From Halorutilus salinus (lineage in GTDB: Archaea; Halobacteriota; Halobacteria; Halobacteriales; Halorutilaceae): a stretch of 64,000 bases of DNA. The position numbers and the translations under genes are program-made. The stretch is taken from NCBI RefSeq assembly GCF_026242195.1, contig NZ_RKLV01000004.1:1-64000 (forward strand). Reading direction: 5' to 3'. The notes beneath the pieces are model-generated. The model was not told the origin of the DNA. It did not search any database and was given only the letters and a program-made list of their open reading frames with translations. Shown in pieces: positions 3,233 to 17,392 of this stretch; positions within the stretch are counted from its first letter, which is position 1; every line of letters begins with the position of its first letter.

Positions 3233-4608
3233 TCAATTATGTAGATAATTCAGACAATAATAAATTCCCCGTTCATATGTATCCGGATCCTTATCAAACA
3301 GTATATGTCCTCCTATTTCAGCATTATTGTAGTGCGCCTTGTGAGGACCTTCAAGAATCCATTTAAATAGCCGAGGATCTATGTGCAACGTCACAGCTCT
3401 TTCGGGAGATGACCCAATTTCTGACTCAGGAATAAGCTCGTAACCCCTACCGTCAAAGGGAAGTTTAAGAGAAGCTTCTTCTACCAATGGTATATAAACT
3501 ATCTTGTCAGTCTTGAATTCAACATCTAAGCGTTTTTCGTTGAAGTTTTTGAAGGCACCTTCAAGTAGATTATTGAGTTCCTCAAGTGTCGGTATTTTTC
3601 TGACTCATATTCGTATGAGCGTTCTTGGAGTTCATTTCTGATATATTCCCACTTCTTTTCTTTATCAATGGGCTCGTATTCGGATGATTTTTCCTTGGTA
3701 GTTATGTCGAAGAAATTTCCCTGATTCAGCAGGACCATCTCCGTGGCATCCTGGACCGATTCACCTGCTATATCTTGATAGTACTTTTCTGCCTCGGAAA
3801 ATGATGGGGTTGGGTGATACAAATTCCGCTCCGCGAGGTTGCCGGCAAGAACTACGCTTGAAGCAAAAGGAATGACAACATCAGGTGAGAGTGTTCTCAC
3901 AAACCCGAGCACATCTTCCATTGATTCTTTGATAATACGCTCGCGCTCCGACAGCATTTTTTCGTGACTCAGGTTAATCATAAAGTGTGGATATATTCCA
4001 GCAGACCCTGCTTGGACAAGCAAGCAGTTAATTCCATTAAAAGTTCGCTTGACACGCCTTGCAGCTCGTTGGGTAAACGGCCATCTACAGTCGTTTGCGT
4101 TGACAAGTACTTCTTCTTCGTTATCAAAGACCCCCATCGTGTCGATGTACGTGGACCCCTCCGTCGCTTTCTTTTCCCCGGCTTTGTCTTCTCCGAACCA
4201 AGTGCACCCGAAAAGTTTCTGACAAACTTCCGGATTACAGTCATCGGAAGCATAGATACTCAGGTGCAAGTCGCCTTCAAGATGATGTCTTTCACCATGC
4301 GACAGTTCGTTCACGTCAAAACCCATGCGCTCGATATTCTTTTTGACGTAATCCCATTTAAAGTCATGTATAAATACGGGAATGTCAGAGTCGAGTTCTT
4401 TCAGAGTGGGATGATGCAAATGATCCGGGTGAATGTGTGAAATATAAATATAATCAATGTCAGCATACTCTTCAGGAGAGAAATCTACCGGGGGGTAATG
4501 CGCCCAAGAACCGTAGTACGTCTCCCCCTCTAGCCAGGGGTCACAGAGTATTTTAACACCTTTGTCTTCCACAAGTACAGTTGAATGCGCAATGTATTTT
4601 ATTTTCAC
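3233..4608 (-). pseudogene. MBL-fold hydrolase (CMAH/UlaG-like), frameshifted
   Basis: A metallo-beta-lactamase-fold protein split by one frameshift. The first part begins at a GTG (4608-4606; KIKYIAHSTVLV follows) and carries the metal motif HIHPDH. It runs into a stop shortly after the T5 run at 3595-3599 (A5 on the coding strand). Adding one A restores the frame: ESEK-IPTLEELNNLL continues through the track to 3233. The restored tail has the family's C-terminal segment, with a conserved HYNNAEIGGH stretch. Related proteins occur in surface-sugar clusters and resemble the hydrolase core of CMP-Neu5Ac hydroxylase. Whether the indel is real, phase-variable or a sequencing error cannot be told here. 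Confidence 0.75.
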
Positions 4609-9507: not shown

Positions 9508-11301
9508 TTATCCTTTCGACTGTATAGCGTAAAGCTCAGCGTACTCGCCTTCGTCTTCGAGTAGCTCCTCGTGCGAACCGGATTCAACTACTTCACCGTC
9601 TTCCAGCGTATATATCGTATCGGCGTTCTTGACCGTCGAAAGGCGGTGCGCGATTGCGATGATGCCGTAGTCGCGGTCCATCGCCTCTATCGAAGCCTGT
9701 ACCTCTTTCTCCAGACTGGAGTCTAAGTCACTCGTCGCTTCGTCGAGTACCAGAAAGTCTGCATCCTTTAGCAACGCACGCGCAAGAGCGACACGTTGAC
9801 GTTGTCCCCCCGATAGACGCACGCCGTCGTCACCTAACTCCGACTCGTATCCGTTCGGTAGGTCGTCCAAGAACTCGTCGACCTTCGCTATTTCGCAGAC
9901 GCGCTCCACCTCTTCCCGAGATGCGTCGCGGTTACCTACGGTAACGTTCCCCTCTAAACTGTCGTTGAACATGAACGGATCCTGACGTACAAGAGCGATA
10001 CGTGATCGCCACTCATCGATATCGTATTCGTCTATAGGCACCCCATCGCCGAGTATCTCGCCCTCGTCCGGGTCATACATCCGTGCCAACAGCGACACCA
10101 CTGTTGACTTACCTGCGCCTGACTGTCCGACGAAAGCGACGAAACCGCCGCGTTCCACGCCGAACGTGATGTCGCGGAGAACCTGTTCTTCGTCGTTGTA
10201 CGAGAAACGGACGTTGTCGAACTCAACGCGTTCGACCTTCGATACGGTGCGGTCTCCCGACTCTTCCTTTCGTTGCGTCAGTTCGTCGAGGAAGCCCTGT
10301 GTCCGTACGAGATGTGATATATGACCTTCGAGATTGTACACCTGACTGTTAAGACGGCTCACGAGCGGTGAGAGCCTGAACATAGCGAGTAAGAAGATAC
10401 CGAGTTCCCCCAGCGACAGACCCGTGAACACGAAGCCGAAGTATATCAGACCGAACAACACAAGCGTTGTAGTGAGATCGTAGAAGTTCTGAACCCCTAC
10501 CTTGTTTCGCTCCAGGCTGATGCTCGAAACGACGTACTGTCGAACGGATTCACGGAAGCTGTCAAATATCTCTTCGGTGAGACCGAAAAGCTTCACATCA
10601 CGTATACCCTGGGTTCCTGCTTGTGCAGTCTGCTGTACGGTTTCGTTCGCTTCCGCTACCCTGTTCCCTACGGTGTATGCAGGCTCTATGACGTACCTCA
10701 TGAGAAACGTGATACCGCCCAAGAGTGTTAGTGCGAAGAGAGCCATGGTAGGAGCCACGTAGAACATAACCGACAGGTAGACGAGGGCGAGAAACATGGT
10801 CTCCATCGACCGTACGCCGAACTTGATAGTACTTCCCGAGTACCTTGTCTCTGTGACTATGGAGTTTAGTATGTCGTCGGAACCCTCCTCATCGAAGTAT
10901 CCCACCTCTGCGTCAAGAGCGGCGTTGAGCGTTTTTGTACGCAGATCCCCCTCGTACCGTTTCTGAAGGATAGCCCTGAACCATCCAACCAGAAACGAAG
11001 CGGTAAAACGTACCGTCATCACTCCGGCGACGCCGAGGATCAGAAACTCAAGCGTAAACGGTATACCGACCGACTCGTATGCCGTTAGGAACATTCCGAG
11101 GAAGCCACCTGCCTCCGTAATAGGCTCCTCCGCCTGTGCGACCTCAAGTATGGGCCAGATGAAGCTGAGACCGATGCCCTCAAGAAATGCCGTGAAACCA
11201 CCTAAGACAGCTATAGTAGCTGTGAACTTCGGGTTGTAACGTGCAACACGAGCCAACGCTTCTATCTTTTTTCGTAGGGAGAGATCTCCTGTGTCGCTCA
11301 T
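9508..11301 (-). CDS. ABC exporter, fused permease and ATPase (MsbA/flippase type)
   Basis: Half-transporter with a type-IV ABC exporter fold. Residues 1-310 form six membrane helices and the intracellular loops. Residues from about 350 form the nucleotide-binding domain with Walker A GQSGAGKST (near 392), signature LSGGQRQR (near 498), Walker B FLVLDEAT (near 517) and the switch histidine in IIAIAHRL. It would work as a homodimer. In a glycan cluster the most likely cargo is a lipid-linked oligosaccharide or polysaccharide (inference from location). ATG start. It lies just downstream of the epimerase pseudogene and faces it. It appears intact. Confidence 0.85.
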   Translation of the reverse strand: MSDTGDLSLRKKIEALARVARYNPKFTATIAVLGGFTAFLEGIGLSFIWPILEVAQAEEPITEAGGFLGMFLTAYESVGIPFTLEFLILGVAGVMTVRFTASFLVGWFRAILQKRYEGDLRTKTLNAALDAEVGYFDEEGSDDILNSIVTETRYSGSTIKFGVRSMETMFLALVYLSVMFYVAPTMALFALTLLGGITFLMRYVIEPAYTVGNRVAEANETVQQTAQAGTQGIRDVKLFGLTEEIFDSFRESVRQYVVSSISLERNKVGVQNFYDLTTTLVLFGLIYFGFVFTGLSLGELGIFLLAMFRLSPLVSRLNSQVYNLEGHISHLVRTQGFLDELTQRKEESGDRTVSKVERVEFDNVRFSYNDEEQVLRDITFGVERGGFVAFVGQSGAGKSTVVSLLARMYDPDEGEILGDGVPIDEYDIDEWRSRIALVRQDPFMFNDSLEGNVTVGNRDASREEVERVCEIAKVDEFLDDLPNGYESELGDDGVRLSGGQRQRVALARALLKDADFLVLDEATSDLDSSLEKEVQASIEAMDRDYGIIAIAHRLSTVKNADTIYTLEDGEVVESGSHEELLEDEGEYAELYAIQSKG

Positions 11302-11475: not shown

Positions 11476-12201
11476 ATGCAAGCCGTAGTACTAGCCGCGG
11501 GCAAAGGAACTCGCCTTGAACCGCTCACGGACGACAAGCCAAAGCCTCTCGTCGAACTCAACGGACGCCCTATACTCGAAGACGTATTCGACAACCTCAT
11601 AGAGATAGGCGTCGACGAGTTCGTGGTCGTTGTCGGGTACATGAAGGAGAAGATAATCGAGCGGTACGAGGATGAGTACCGCGGCGTGCCCATCACGTAC
11701 GCCCACCAGCGCGAGCAGAACGGGCTTGCGCACGCCCTCCTACAGACGGAGTCGCACGTCGACGGCGACTTCGTTCTGATGCTCGGCGACAACATCTTCC
11801 GTGGAAACCTCGGCGATGTGGTCAACCGTCAGCGCGAGGACCGAGCCGACGCGGCGTTCCTCGTCGAAGAGGTTCCGTACGAGGAGGCTTCGCGTTACGG
11901 GGTCTGTGACACCAACGAGTACGGCGAGATAGAGCGCGTCGTAGAGAAGCCCGACGACCCGCCGTCGAACCTCGTCATGACCGGATTCTACACCTTCACG
12001 CCCGCAATCTTCCACGCGTGCCATCTCGTACAGCCGAGCGACCGCGGCGAGTACGAACTGACGGACGCTATCAACCTCCTCATACAGTCGGGGCGCACCA
12101 TCGATGCGATACGTCTCGACGGCTGGCGCACCGACATCGGTTATCCGGAGGACCGTGACGAGGCGGAGGAACGTATACAGGAGGCGAAGGCTACCGAGTA
12201 A
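11476..12201 (+). CDS. aglF: AglF-like sugar-1-phosphate nucleotidyltransferase
   Basis: Nucleotidyltransferase that charges a sugar 1-phosphate, probably forming UDP-glucose. The 241-residue protein opens with VVLAAGKGTRLEPLT (residues 4-18) and KPKPLVELNGRPI, the dNTP/UTP-binding loop and conserved lysine. MLGDNIF carries the metal aspartate, and DIGYPED lies near the end. Size and sequence style match AglF, the haloarchaeal glucose-1-phosphate uridylyltransferase of N-glycosylation. The UDP-glucose dehydrogenase about 1 kb downstream would use its product. Unlike RmlA at 1741 it lacks the LPVYDKPM signature. GC content is that of the main genome. The symbol rests on similarity and context. 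Confidence 0.75.
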   Translation: MQAVVLAAGKGTRLEPLTDDKPKPLVELNGRPILEDVFDNLIEIGVDEFVVVVGYMKEKIIERYEDEYRGVPITYAHQREQNGLAHALLQTESHVDGDFVLMLGDNIFRGNLGDVVNRQREDRADAAFLVEEVPYEEASRYGVCDTNEYGEIERVVEKPDDPPSNLVMTGFYTFTPAIFHACHLVQPSDRGEYELTDAINLLIQSGRTIDAIRLDGWRTDIGYPEDRDEAEERIQEAKATE

Positions 12202-12215
12202 CCCGCTCAAGCTTG

Positions 12216-12794
12216 CTACGGTAGGTACTCCGGATCAACGTACGCGGAACAGTCGATGGGTACCCCTTTCCACATCATACCGATAGCTCTGTAGCCGTCC
12301 CACCCCTCCATTTCGATAATCGCCTGGTTCGTTTCGCAGAACTCCTCTTTCGACACCATGCCGTTGTCGTAGGCTATGTACAGCGGAAACGCCGGTGACG
12401 GTGTCTTCACCCCGTAGCCGTTCGGTTCAGCCGTCTTTCTTATCGAGTCTCTCCCGTCCCCGTCCATCACAAAGACAGCATCGTACTCGTCCCCCTGCTG
12501 TGCTATCTGAATCCTCAGCGACTCTTCTCCGGCGTTCTTCCCGTGCGGCTTCGGAACCGTGTTCACGAGAGACAAGCTACCGTCTTCTATCCCTTCCAAC
12601 GCGTGCTTGCTCCCTTCGTACCTGTACCGGTCCCGCGAACCTTCCGGAGAAGCCTTCCCCTCCTTGACGTGTCTTTCGAGTTCTTTCTTGACGACGTATG
12701 TCGTGTCCATCCTGATGTTGAAGAAGATGGTGTCCCGGAGTTCGGTGTTACCGATAGCTATCAGCGCGTCCGTGTCTATCAGAAGACGCCCCAT
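12216..12794 (-). CDS. PIN-domain toxin of a toxin-antitoxin pair
   Basis: Probable RNase toxin with a PIN-like nuclease fold, larger (192 residues) than classical VapC. Acidic residues that would bind metal sit in LLIDTDALIAIG at the N terminus, GEESLRIQI near residue 95 and VFVMDGDGR near 112. The antitoxin's stop and this ATG share one base (TGATG), so they are translationally coupled; the GTG one codon earlier is less likely. The gene order, antitoxin first, is that of type II systems. A second, related pair lies at 16437-17392. The target RNA is unknown. Confidence 0.65.
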   Translation of the reverse strand: MGRLLIDTDALIAIGNTELRDTIFFNIRMDTTYVVKKELERHVKEGKASPEGSRDRYRYEGSKHALEGIEDGSLSLVNTVPKPHGKNAGEESLRIQIAQQGDEYDAVFVMDGDGRDSIRKTAEPNGYGVKTPSPAFPLYIAYDNGMVSKEEFCETNQAIIEMEGWDGYRAIGMMWKGVPIDCSAYVDPEYLP

Positions 12795-13096
12795 CACTCG
12801 ACGATGTACTGAGAGGTGTCTCTTTCTGCCATCTCGGACGTGTCTTCCTTCATCCGCTCTATGTCGTTCAGTTCGTCGCCCAGTGCCACCTCTAACGCGG
12901 CTTTTGAGATTTCGCCTCTCTCGTACATCTCGTACAGTTCTATCTTCTCGTCGTCCGATAGTATCTCAGGTATCAGACGTTCCATAGCCACCCTGCCGAC
13001 CTCGCTCTCGTTCAGTCCGCCCACGCGGATCTCTTTGAGCACGTTAAGTACCTCTTTGATAGACTTCGATCTGAACTGAACCGTGTCTTCTTCCAT
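12794..13096 (-). CDS. UPF0175-like antitoxin
   Basis: Small acidic protein (100 residues) directly upstream of the PIN toxin and coupled to it. The segment IELYEMYERGEISKAALEVA resembles the helix-turn-helix region of UPF0175-type antitoxins, as does AYYDGRIDHSIAEDILG in the antitoxin at 16437. It would bind and silence the toxin and repress its own promoter. The start is ATG, with a TATA box 27 bases upstream, so the mRNA is probably leaderless. Confidence 0.6.
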   Translation of the reverse strand: MEEDTVQFRSKSIKEVLNVLKEIRVGGLNESEVGRVAMERLIPEILSDDEKIELYEMYERGEISKAALEVALGDELNDIERMKEDTSEMAERDTSQYIVE

Positions 13097-13213: not shown

Positions 13214-15907
13214 ATGAAAGTCTCCGTCATAGGAAGCGGTTACGTCGGAACCACCGTCGCCGTCTGTCTCGCCGAACTCGGTCACGAGGTCGTCAACGTC
13301 GACATAGACGGGGATACTGTCGCGTCGATGAACAACGGCGTCGCGCCTATACACGAACCGCGACTCGGCGAACTCGTTGAGGAACATGCCGAAAGCGGGG
13401 CACTGCGCGCGACGACCGAGTACGACGCCGTCCGTGAGACGGACGTAACTCTCATCTGTCTCCCGACCCCCTCGCGCGACGACGGAGCCGTAGACACCTC
13501 GGTTGTCGAGGAAGGCGCGCGGTCGGTCGGCGAAGCGCTCGCGGGGAAGGACGGCTACCACGTCGTCGGCGTAAAGAGCACCGTCGTTCCGGGTACGGTT
13601 GAGGATGCCGTCGTCCCTGCCGTTGAGGAAGCATCGGACAGGAGCGTCGGCGACGGCTTCGGTGTCGTGTCGAACCCCGAGTTTCTGCGCGAAGGTACCG
13701 CAGTCGACGACTTCCTCGACCCCGACAAGGTCGTTGTAGGCGCTTCGGACGGACGTGCGCGCGATGTCCTACGCCGACTCTACGAACCGCTTCTCGAACG
13801 TTCCGACGCGGAGTACGTCGAAACGGGTGTGCGCGAGGCGGAGACGATAAAGTACGCCAACAACGCCTTCCTCGCCTCGAAGCTCTCCGTCGTCAACGAG
13901 ATAGCCAACGTCTGTAAGGAAGCGGGTGTCGACTCGTACGAGGTCATGGACGCGGTGGGTATCGACCACCGTATATCGTCGTCGTTCACCCGCTCCGGAC
14001 TCGGATGGGGAGGGTCGTGCCTCACCGGGGACGAGCGTGTAATCGTGAAGGACAACGGCGAGACGGAACATACGACCCTCGCGGAGTTCTACGGCGAGTA
14101 CGCCGCGAACGACGAACTCGACGATGTGTCGGTGCTGAGCCGTGGTGACGACGGTTCGTGGGCGTTCAAGCCCGTTGTCGCGGCGACGCGGCGTGAGTAC
14201 GACGGCGAACTCCACACGTTCCACACGAGCATGAACAAGACCGTCACCGTCACGCACGACCACCCGATGCTAACCGTCGAGAACGGCGAAACCGTCGTGT
14301 GTGAAGCGCGTGACCTCTCCGAGGGCGACGCGCTACCGGTCCTCGACAGCATCCCCGAAGACTCCGTCGGAGCCTTCGATCTGATCGGGTACGCCGAAGG
14401 GTCGTCCGATTTCGACGAGGACTCCGTCTACCTGAAGCCGACGGTCGACCTCAAAGAACACAAGGACGAACTCCGTGACGCTCTCTCCGAGTACAACGAG
14501 GCGTTCGGCTACGACAGGGTCCACGAGTTTGTCCGTAACGGATACCTGAGTCTTGACGCCTTCCTCGCCGCCGAGGACGAACTGCCGCTCTGTAGGACAG
14601 ACGTTGCGTTGTACACGACGGTGGGTGGAGGGCAGACGTACGTTCCCGCTGTTCTCGACGCCGACGAGGATTTCTGGAGGTTTATCGGGTACTACATCAG
14701 CGAAGGACACGTCGCTGACGACGACTCCGGTCACGGCTCCAAGACTCGTCGCCGTGTCTTCCTCAGCTTCCATCCTTCGGATGAGCAAGAGTACGTCGAA
14801 GACGTCACGTCGTATCTTGACCGTATCGGTGTGCGCCACAAGACGCGGACGAAGGAGACGACGACGGATATCGAGGTATCGAGCCGCGTTCTCGCGGGCT
14901 TTCTCGAACATATCGGCTGTGGAACCGACTCTTACACGGCGCGGATTCCGGACGCGGCGTACGACGAACCCGCCCAAAACCGTCTCGCTCTCCTCTCCGG
15001 ACTGTTCCGCGGTGACGGACACGTTGAGTACACGAACCATTCGAACGCCGTCGTTTACGACTACGGCTCCGTGAGTGAGGAGCTGATACAGGGTATGCAG
15101 GTTCTCCTCCACAGCCTCGGTATCGTTCCGAGCTATAAGTCATCGCGTTCCGAGAAGTCGACGCAGATGGCGCATTTCCTCCGGGTTAGTTCGAAGGGGC
15201 AGGTCGCCGCGCTGAAGGATATCTATCTCCCGTCTGAACGCGAGAGGATAGAACGACGGCTGAACAGCTACGACCGCGAGGTCGCACCGATGGGGTACGC
15301 CGCGGACGGAGGGATGACAACCGTAAGCGTGCGCGATACCGTGGTCGAGGAGGAGACGACGGACGTATACTCACTCGAAGTCGAAGATAGCCACAACTTC
15401 GTGACGACCGATGGACTCGTCGTCCACAACTGCTTCCCCAAGGATGTCGATGCTCTCCGTTCGTTCGCGCGTTCCGAGGGCTACGAAACCGAGCTACTCG
15501 ACGCCGTCGTGGACGTAAACGACAGACAGGCGCACCGCGCGGTCGAACTCCTGCGTAGACACGTCGAACTCGACGGTGCGCGTGTCGCTGTACTTGGACT
15601 TGCGTTCAAGCCACAGACGGATGACGTCCGTAACTCGCGTGCGCTCGACGTTATACGGCTCCTCGACGAACGGGGCGCTGACGTTGTCGCATACGACCCC
15701 GAGGCGACCGAGAACGCGCGTAGAGCTTTGGACATTGACGTGGAGTACGCCGACTCGGCGCAAGACGCGGTTGAAGACGCCGCCGGTATCGTGATAGCCA
15801 CCGACTGGGACGAGTTCGAGGGGATCGACGCGTCGGGTGCGGTCGTCGTCGACGGAAGACGTGTAGAGGTGAGGAACGCCGAGGTCTACGAAGGTCTGTG
15901 TTGGTAG
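13214..15907 (+). CDS. aglM: UDP-glucose/GDP-mannose 6-dehydrogenase with intein (AglM-like)
   Basis: Oxidises UDP-glucose to UDP-glucuronate with two NAD+, supplying hexuronic acids for the surface glycan. The 897-residue precursor consists of an N-extein (1-268), an intein (269-739) and a C-extein (740-897); the spliced enzyme has 426 residues, normal for the family. The NAD loop is GSGYVG (7-12). KYANNAFLASKLS is the central-domain helix with the conserved Lys and Asn, and the catalytic motif GGS-CFPKD is formed only after splicing, with Cys740 as the nucleophile. FKPQTDDVRNSRA is the UDP-binding C-terminal site. The precursor should therefore be inactive until spliced. aglF upstream would supply its substrate. 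Confidence 0.9.
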   Translation: MKVSVIGSGYVGTTVAVCLAELGHEVVNVDIDGDTVASMNNGVAPIHEPRLGELVEEHAESGALRATTEYDAVRETDVTLICLPTPSRDDGAVDTSVVEEGARSVGEALAGKDGYHVVGVKSTVVPGTVEDAVVPAVEEASDRSVGDGFGVVSNPEFLREGTAVDDFLDPDKVVVGASDGRARDVLRRLYEPLLERSDAEYVETGVREAETIKYANNAFLASKLSVVNEIANVCKEAGVDSYEVMDAVGIDHRISSSFTRSGLGWGGSCLTGDERVIVKDNGETEHTTLAEFYGEYAANDELDDVSVLSRGDDGSWAFKPVVAATRREYDGELHTFHTSMNKTVTVTHDHPMLTVENGETVVCEARDLSEGDALPVLDSIPEDSVGAFDLIGYAEGSSDFDEDSVYLKPTVDLKEHKDELRDALSEYNEAFGYDRVHEFVRNGYLSLDAFLAAEDELPLCRTDVALYTTVGGGQTYVPAVLDADEDFWRFIGYYISEGHVADDDSGHGSKTRRRVFLSFHPSDEQEYVEDVTSYLDRIGVRHKTRTKETTTDIEVSSRVLAGFLEHIGCGTDSYTARIPDAAYDEPAQNRLALLSGLFRGDGHVEYTNHSNAVVYDYGSVSEELIQGMQVLLHSLGIVPSYKSSRSEKSTQMAHFLRVSSKGQVAALKDIYLPSERERIERRLNSYDREVAPMGYAADGGMTTVSVRDTVVEEETTDVYSLEVEDSHNFVTTDGLVVHNCFPKDVDALRSFARSEGYETELLDAVVDVNDRQAHRAVELLRRHVELDGARVAVLGLAFKPQTDDVRNSRALDVIRLLDERGADVVAYDPEATENARRALDIDVEYADSAQDAVEDAAGIVIATDWDEFEGIDASGAVVVDGRRVEVRNAEVYEGLCW
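14018..15430 (+). mobile_element. intein with LAGLIDADG homing endonuclease
   Basis: In-frame intein of 471 residues inside the UDP-glucose dehydrogenase. It starts with Cys269 (CLTGDERV, block A), has VTHDHPML near residue 348 (block B) and ends with SHNFVTTDGLVVHN (blocks F and G, His738-Asn739), followed by Cys740. The splice residues are all present, so splicing should work. Between the splicing halves lie two LAGLIDADG motifs, FIGYYISEGH (490-499, acid Glu497) and LLSGLFRGDGH (593-603, acid Asp601), so the homing endonuclease looks intact. The insertion point is the codon of the host's catalytic cysteine. Inteins in UDP-glucose dehydrogenase are known from Methanocaldococcus. Confidence 0.92.
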
Positions 15908-16436: not shown

Positions 16437-16826
16437 ATGCCGGAGGAAAAGAAGCGCGTCGACTTCAACGCGGACGTCTCGGTCATTGAAAGCGCCGACA
16501 GCATCACTGAGGTAACCAACGATACCCGAACCGACTTCATTATCGACGCCATCAAAAACGAAATCAGGAAGCTCAGGAACGATGAAGACTTCCGTCAGGA
16601 AGTAGTCGACGCGTACTACGACGGCCGTATCGACCACAGTATAGCCGAGGATATACTCGGGGTCGAAGAGGCAACACGGATGAAACTCCTGAAGGAGTCC
16701 ATCGATAGAACACCACCGGAACCCCAACTTGAAGACAGTGTTCCAACGGATGAGGAGTTCTACGACGGCAAGGTACCGACATGGAAACCGGACGAGAGGT
16801 CCAAGTCGGCGAGCGAGGGAACGTAG
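16437..16826 (+). CDS. UPF0175-like antitoxin
   Basis: Antitoxin of a PIN-toxin pair (129 residues, acidic). Residues about 30-85 hold short helices; VVDAYYDGRIDHSIAEDILG resembles the UPF0175 helix-turn-helix segment and is related in pattern to the antitoxin at 12794. The C-terminal part, rich in Pro, Glu and Asp, is likely flexible and may wrap the toxin, as in other antitoxins. It starts at ATG directly after a large palindrome, which fits autoregulation. The toxin gene follows 8 bases downstream. Confidence 0.6.
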   Translation: MPEEKKRVDFNADVSVIESADSITEVTNDTRTDFIIDAIKNEIRKLRNDEDFRQEVVDAYYDGRIDHSIAEDILGVEEATRMKLLKESIDRTPPEPQLEDSVPTDEEFYDGKVPTWKPDERSKSASEGT

Positions 16827-16834
16827 ACCGGAGG

Positions 16835-17392
16835 ATGGCAGGGAAAGCCGTCGCAGTTGTTGATACCAACGTCCTGCTGAACCTCGCGATCCCGGTCGTC
16901 GACAACCGCTCGAAAGCACCCACCGGAGAGGATCCGTTCAAGACTCTGCTTGTTTCCTACGACATACATGTACCAGACAGCGTGCTCGGGGAGGTCACCG
17001 ACGCCTCCGGGGGCGACGATCTTCTCTCCCAAGCCGCAAAACTCGTGCTCCGAGCGGCGGACAGCCTGACAACCCATGATGTACGTGATGAGGTGGGAGA
17101 ACCGGTTGACTACGGACTTGACCGGGGTGAGTCAGAAGCGATCTGGCTGACGAACAACCGTAACGTGGACTTCTTGATCACCGACGATTTCGGCTCGACA
17201 AAATACCTCTTGCTCAACCTCGCGCTTGAAGATCGGAACAAGCTGTTTACGACCCCTCATATACTCTGTACCCTCGCCGCCGACGGTGCTCTTCATCCCG
17301 AGTACGTGGAAGAGGCTCTCACCTACTACTTCGAAACGAAATCTTGGGACGGGAAGTACGTGGGTCTGCTCCGAGAAAGATACTTACGCTGA
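16835..17392 (+). CDS. PIN-domain toxin
   Basis: PIN-fold ribonuclease toxin of 185 residues. Metal-binding acidic residues: VVDTNVLLNL (Asp near residue 9), DRGESEAIWL (Glu near 97) and FLITDDFGS (Asp pair near 113). I chose the ATG at 16835, since GGAGG precedes it closely and the PIN fold starts right there; a longer frame from 16781 would overlap the antitoxin. It forms an operon with the preceding antitoxin. It is larger than classical VapC and similar in plan to the toxin at 12216. The substrate is unknown. Confidence 0.7.
   Translation: MAGKAVAVVDTNVLLNLAIPVVDNRSKAPTGEDPFKTLLVSYDIHVPDSVLGEVTDASGGDDLLSQAAKLVLRAADSLTTHDVRDEVGEPVDYGLDRGESEAIWLTNNRNVDFLITDDFGSTKYLLLNLALEDRNKLFTTPHILCTLAADGALHPEYVEEALTYYFETKSWDGKYVGLLRERYLR

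Follow-up and report, generated by a model that had tools for sequence, protein, structure and literature searches.

A udp-type intein at the catalytic cysteine of UDP-glucose dehydrogenase in the haloarchaeon Halorutilus salinus

Background

Inteins in UDP-glucose 6-dehydrogenase are in print as the 'udp' allele, for which the accessible portion of Soucy et al. 2014 (PMC4071816) lists seven Halobacteria, two bacteria and six other Euryarchaeota, and which is described there as monophyletic and possibly old. A preference of inteins for active sites is likewise published, with a mean distance of 8.3 Å as against 21.1 Å for other Cys, Ser or Thr sites in the available part of that study (PMC3359363). 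The intein described here, from a 64,000-nucleotide stretch of Halorutilus salinus (contig NZ_RKLV01000004.1, positions 1 to 64,000; hereafter the window), is a further member of the udp kind. It shares its host gene and class of organism with the published allele of Halobacteria, Methanocaldococcus and others but belongs to another host lineage, and the identity of its insertion site is known from the homologues examined in this work rather than from the accessible text of PMC4071816. It offers a clean example of an intein whose own +1 splice residue is a catalytic residue of the host enzyme. One paper on a Campylobacter phage speaks of an intein as well as of a UDP-glucose dehydrogenase (PMC3322345); it was set aside because, in the portion available, its inteins lie in other genes.

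Anatomy of the interrupted gene

Table 1. Features of the interrupted UDP-glucose dehydrogenase gene and its neighbours, in window coordinates
Feature	Position	Strand	Details
ABC exporter	9508-11301		neighbour of UDP-glucose dehydrogenase gene
Sugar nucleotidyltransferase	11476-12201		neighbour of UDP-glucose dehydrogenase gene
UDP-glucose dehydrogenase (AglM type) precursor ORF	13214-15907	+	897 aa, ATG start, no internal stops
N-extein of UDP-glucose 6-dehydrogenase (AglM type)	13214..14017	+	residues 1-268, C-terminal GWGGS
Intein, class 1, with LAGLIDADG endonuclease	14018..15430	+	471 aa, precursor residues 269-739
Cys1 of intein (precursor C269), splicing nucleophile	14018..14020	+	C in 19/20 homologues; the 20th (L084) ends at a contig end
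Block B T-H-D-H (T347...H350)	14252..14263	+	T, D and H invariant, 20/20
First LAGLIDADG motif, FIGYYISEGHV	14681..14713	+	acidic residue E497 invariant, 20/20
Second LAGLIDADG motif, LLSGLFRGDGHV	14990..15025	+	acidic residue D601 invariant, 20/20; PF14528
Blocks F and G, VYSLEVEDSHNFVTTDGLVVHN	15365..15430	+	end in His738-Asn739; penultimate H and terminal N invariant, 20/20; TIGR01443
C-extein	15431..15907	+	residues 740-897 with stop; opens C740 FPKD, catalytic cysteine

Pfam searches placed dehydrogenase and intein domains in one and the same frame of the precursor, with UDPG_MGDP_dh_N at residues 1-189, the central domain at 207-284 plus a second stretch and the C-terminal domain at 792-884, and with Intein_splicing (PF14890, above its cut-off) at 278-739 and LAGLIDADG_3 (PF14528) at 590-667. 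The NCBIfam models intein_Nterm (TIGR01445) and intein_Cterm (TIGR01443) matched at 269-354 (49.1 bits, cut-off 24.5) and 717-740 (31.2 bits, cut-off 15.6), and these two matches fix the intein at residues 269-739. The original prediction had given 13214-15907 for the intein; those are the bounds of the whole gene, and the intein alone occupies 14018-15430. The domain matches had E-values from 1e-7 to 1e-184, far beyond chance, and their position in a single open frame, together with 20 homologues, ruled out a chance or mis-called frame. The exteins carry all three UDPG_MGDP_dh domains, read GGSCFPKD once joined and have AglM (NF041297) as their best NCBIfam family, yet the interrupted form, which is what was scored, reached 613.5 bits and stays below the family cut-off of 670.

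The junctions read ...GWGGS(268)/C(269)LTGDE... and ...VVHN(739)/C(740)FPKD..., so that the intein separates GGS from CFPKD. Alignment with the UDP-glucose dehydrogenase structure 3vtf, in which GGSC ends at residue 284 and SCFPKD starts at 283, equates Cys740 with the cysteine of GGSCFPKD in the mature protein, and this we take, from general knowledge of UDP-glucose dehydrogenases, to be the catalytic one. The single frame, the junctions and the alignment thus bear out the claim that the intein lies at the catalytic cysteine, with Cys740 serving both as the +1 splice residue and as the catalytic position. The further claim that the enzyme has no nucleophile in place until splicing stands only in part: the precursor lacks the correct downstream half, but GGS is followed there at once by Cys1 of the intein itself, which makes the wording imprecise.

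Conservation was assessed over 20 distinct homologues, one of which (L084) lacks the intein start at a contig end; three partial matches without a UDP-glucose dehydrogenase junction (L043-L045) and four identical copies were left out. Across the intein, 126 of 471 positions are invariant. The residues that mark class 1 inteins are all present (C269, block B TxxH at T347..H350, H738-N739 and the +1 C740), the HINT fold is indicated both by PF14890 and by comparison of a structural model with known inteins, and the two motifs with acidic residues E497 and D601 identify a LAGLIDADG (DOD) endonuclease. Many inteins have Asp at the third position of VYSLEV in block F; the window intein and all 20 homologues have Ser. 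The prediction that the splice residues and both LAGLIDADG motifs are intact agrees with the conservation of these residues among the homologues, and a comparison of the window intein with the same 20 sequences found no disabled residue in block B, F or G, the kind of mutation that had been named as evidence against it; broken splicing was rejected on this ground. From residue conservation and the intact extein frame we infer that the window intein splices.

An AlphaFold2 model of the intein alone (pLDDT 84.9, pTM 0.88) matched two LAGLIDADG inteins, TliVMA (7qss; Z 36.1, 353 aligned residues, 2.5 Å) and PI-PkoII (2cw7; Z 34.5, 421 aligned residues, 4.3 Å), in its whole fold over residues 1-471, although identity to them is only 18-21% and their host genes and sites are different. 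Structure alignment A1 used 40 of the 48 rows available.

Filled and empty alleles

Of 392 genomes drawn from the order, 18 carried the udp intein at E<=1e-40, or 17 of 391 when the source genome is set aside. A contig search of genomes returned nine loci. Six were full copies and belonged to named records, and the carriers include Halobacterium salinarum DSM 3754, Haloarcula pellucida, Halovenus carboxidivorans and one Nanohaloarchaeon. The HN/CFPKD junction occurs in 20 of 20 distinct full copies and GGS/C in the 19 that are not cut at a contig end; L099 and L100, the copies in two genomes drawn as relatives of the Nanohaloarchaeon, have it at this site too. Every homologue examined therefore has a homologous intein at an identical site in a UDP-glucose dehydrogenase gene, as expected of the udp allele. 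The intein closest to that of the window, from Hbt. salinarum, has 69% identity, so that the window copy is old and separately evolving.

When the N-extein was searched against 59 relatives, the source genome included, 52 matched at E<=1e-20, some through other sugar-nucleotide dehydrogenases; at E<=1e-60 the matches, counted as rows, came to 47 of 59, with the intein in three (the source genome, G007 and G034). G003, a genome from the family of the source organism, has the gene without interruption; identity to the joined exteins is 73.8% across 424 positions, and the alignment contains two gap positions. The N-extein search found no AglM-like match in the two genomes of the same genus, which are 64% and 88% complete. 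Intein-free rows in the analyses below are the best-scoring loci of this search of relatives and do not amount to a survey; 24-nt insertion flanks were taken from 20 filled and 28 empty alleles. Since filled and empty alleles occur in related genomes, homing and conditional splicing are testable in tractable haloarchaea.

Candidate vehicles were sought among plasmids, viruses and phages. A scan of viral contigs found no relative, plasmids gave no match, and phages gave only four records, with at most 27.4% identity and annotated as other genes or as hypothetical; a viral or plasmid carrier was rejected on these results. Some individual loci deserve mention. In the MAG J07HX64 (L040, about 3983-4001) the N-extein frame differs from that of the intein, with a shift near the junction, so that either the copy is broken or the assembly is in error. 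A second UDP-glucose dehydrogenase copy at G036:C3:78245-79038 lies in two adjoining pieces in separate frames and is perhaps a frameshifted pseudogene. The 2.1-Mb source genome is itself rich in inteins, with 15 above-cut-off matches to the intein N-terminal model, mostly outside the window and three of them in a single frame of 2517 aa.

Probable mobility of the intein

The extein tree comprised 46 rows, 18 with and 28 without the intein; L040, with its differing N-extein frame, and L084, at a contig end, were absent from the extein trees, and the long-branched L042 from the AU tests. Intein presence requires at least nine changes on this tree. Exteins and inteins gave conflicting topologies: the window extein paired with that of the intein-free G003 (support 100/100) and the Hbt. 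salinarum extein paired, among intein-bearing rows, with that of G079 (100/99), whereas the window intein paired with the Hbt. salinarum intein (97/93). In AU tests on groups picked after the trees had been seen, the window-Hbt. salinarum grouping was rejected for the exteins (p 9.9e-6) and the Hbt. salinarum-G079 grouping for the inteins (p 1.7e-4); two further tests, with groups picked in the same way, gave p 0.11 and 0.061. Identity to the window was higher for the intein than for the extein in all 17 homologues with a full extein (58.6-68.8% versus 55.1-62.8% in the 16 haloarchaeal ones).

Within the endonuclease part (positions 200-400, a range chosen by the analyst) dN/dS was 0.05-0.09 in seven of seven pairs, the value for the window pair being rough because its dS is near saturation (1.8-2.5). 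Tree conflict, purifying selection and patchy presence support spread of the udp intein by homing, as far as sequence comparison can tell, and the first two favour such spread over a fixed regulatory device. The suggestion that the element may still be active in homing is thereby well supported, if indirectly, by the number of changes, the tree conflict, dN/dS and the conserved residues.

Copies in a Nanohaloarchaeon and in genomes drawn as its relatives

Nanohaloarchaeon NHA25 carries the udp intein at the same UDP-glucose dehydrogenase site (L042:4001-5410, on a 1.03-Mb contig), with identities to the window of 55.7% for the intein and 46.4% for the extein. Among 80 genomes searched the intein was found in the same gene and site in three, namely NHA25 and two genomes drawn as its relatives (G438 and G461). 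In an outgroup-rooted tree the NHA25 intein fell among haloarchaeal inteins (90/99) and in a rooted extein tree its extein fell outside all haloarchaeal exteins present (98/98), a rooting that is weak because the outgroup branches are very long. Nanohaloarchaea are thought to be episymbionts of haloarchaea. From these trees we can only tentatively suggest, and consider doubtful, that the udp intein homes across phyla in brine communities, between haloarchaea and Nanohaloarchaea. In the accessible text of the open-licence PMC literature we found no report of the udp allele in DPANN or nanohaloarchaea, and its occurrence in NHA25 and the two genomes drawn as its relatives is a possible addition to knowledge.

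Selfish element, switch or relic

We consider it very probable that the element is a full-length class 1 udp intein, set between Gly-Gly-Ser and the catalytic Cys, that persists as a mobile selfish element. After translation, Cys1 (C269) would attack the Ser268 carbonyl, the N-extein would move to Cys740, and Asn739 would cyclise, giving a joined enzyme of 426 aa that acquires the CFPKD catalytic motif; these steps are presumed from the conserved residues and from what is known of class 1 inteins. Alleles without the intein would be cut by its LAGLIDADG endonuclease at the very conserved GGS-CFPKD site, and by such cutting the element would persist. The insertion site would add to this, in that the enzyme should be inactive unless the intein splices and imprecise loss should be harmful.

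Endonuclease decay is common among inteins, and it is conceivable, although unlikely, that the window element is vertically inherited with a dead endonuclease, its splicing retained because the host needs the enzyme. A detectable endonuclease is present in only 57.9-59.3% of Halobacteriales inteins in the table available to us (PMC10643990), and the intein model is poor over residues 333-335, which lie at the second LAGLIDADG motif; against decay stand the retention of both acidic residues, the many invariant positions, the low dN/dS of the endonuclease and the transfer shown by the tree conflict. That conditional splicing in response to salt, redox or temperature gates the supply of UDP-glucuronate, and with it surface glycan synthesis, appears very unlikely. 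Insertion at the catalytic Cys would make activity strictly dependent on splicing, as such a post-translational switch requires, and other haloarchaeal inteins are cited, in the accessible part of PMC8229266, as requiring high salt. For the window intein itself, the suggested salt dependence of glycan synthesis is unsupported. The two junctions (249-268 and 740-744, both with pLDDT <50) show little order and rank, with the C-terminus, among the poorest regions of the precursor model, which may be expected of a disrupted active site but equally of a weak or shallow alignment. Internal salt in haloarchaea is usually constantly high, the nearest relative (G003) lives without the intein, and the patchy presence of the element follows horizontal transfer, all of which speaks against a switch and leaves the mobile selfish element as our preferred reading.

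Host enzyme and neighbourhood

In the source genome (92.8% complete) the central dehydrogenase domain was detected in only two genes, one of them with the intein. The other encodes an uninterrupted nucleotide sugar dehydrogenase of 418 aa that falls below every equivalog cut-off and scores higher as a UDP-ManNAc enzyme than as AglM; no further AglM-like gene was found in this 92.8% complete genome. As the interrupted gene is the only AglM-like one found, the host enzyme is probably without a backup, and its activity would require splicing. Dependence of glycan synthesis on splicing is plausible. The neighbourhood is consistent with glycan synthesis, with a DegT-type aminotransferase, an NAD-dependent epimerase and a glycosyltransferase in addition to the neighbours in Table 1.

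On either side of the gene lies a pair of small, overlapping genes (12216-13096 on the minus strand and 16437-17392 on the plus strand), and the two are possible VapBC-like pairs. The longer gene of each had no Pfam match; by motif its start is presumably PIN-domain-like, and 16437-16826 has a weak likeness to Rv0623-like antitoxins (E 2.3e-4, below cut-off).
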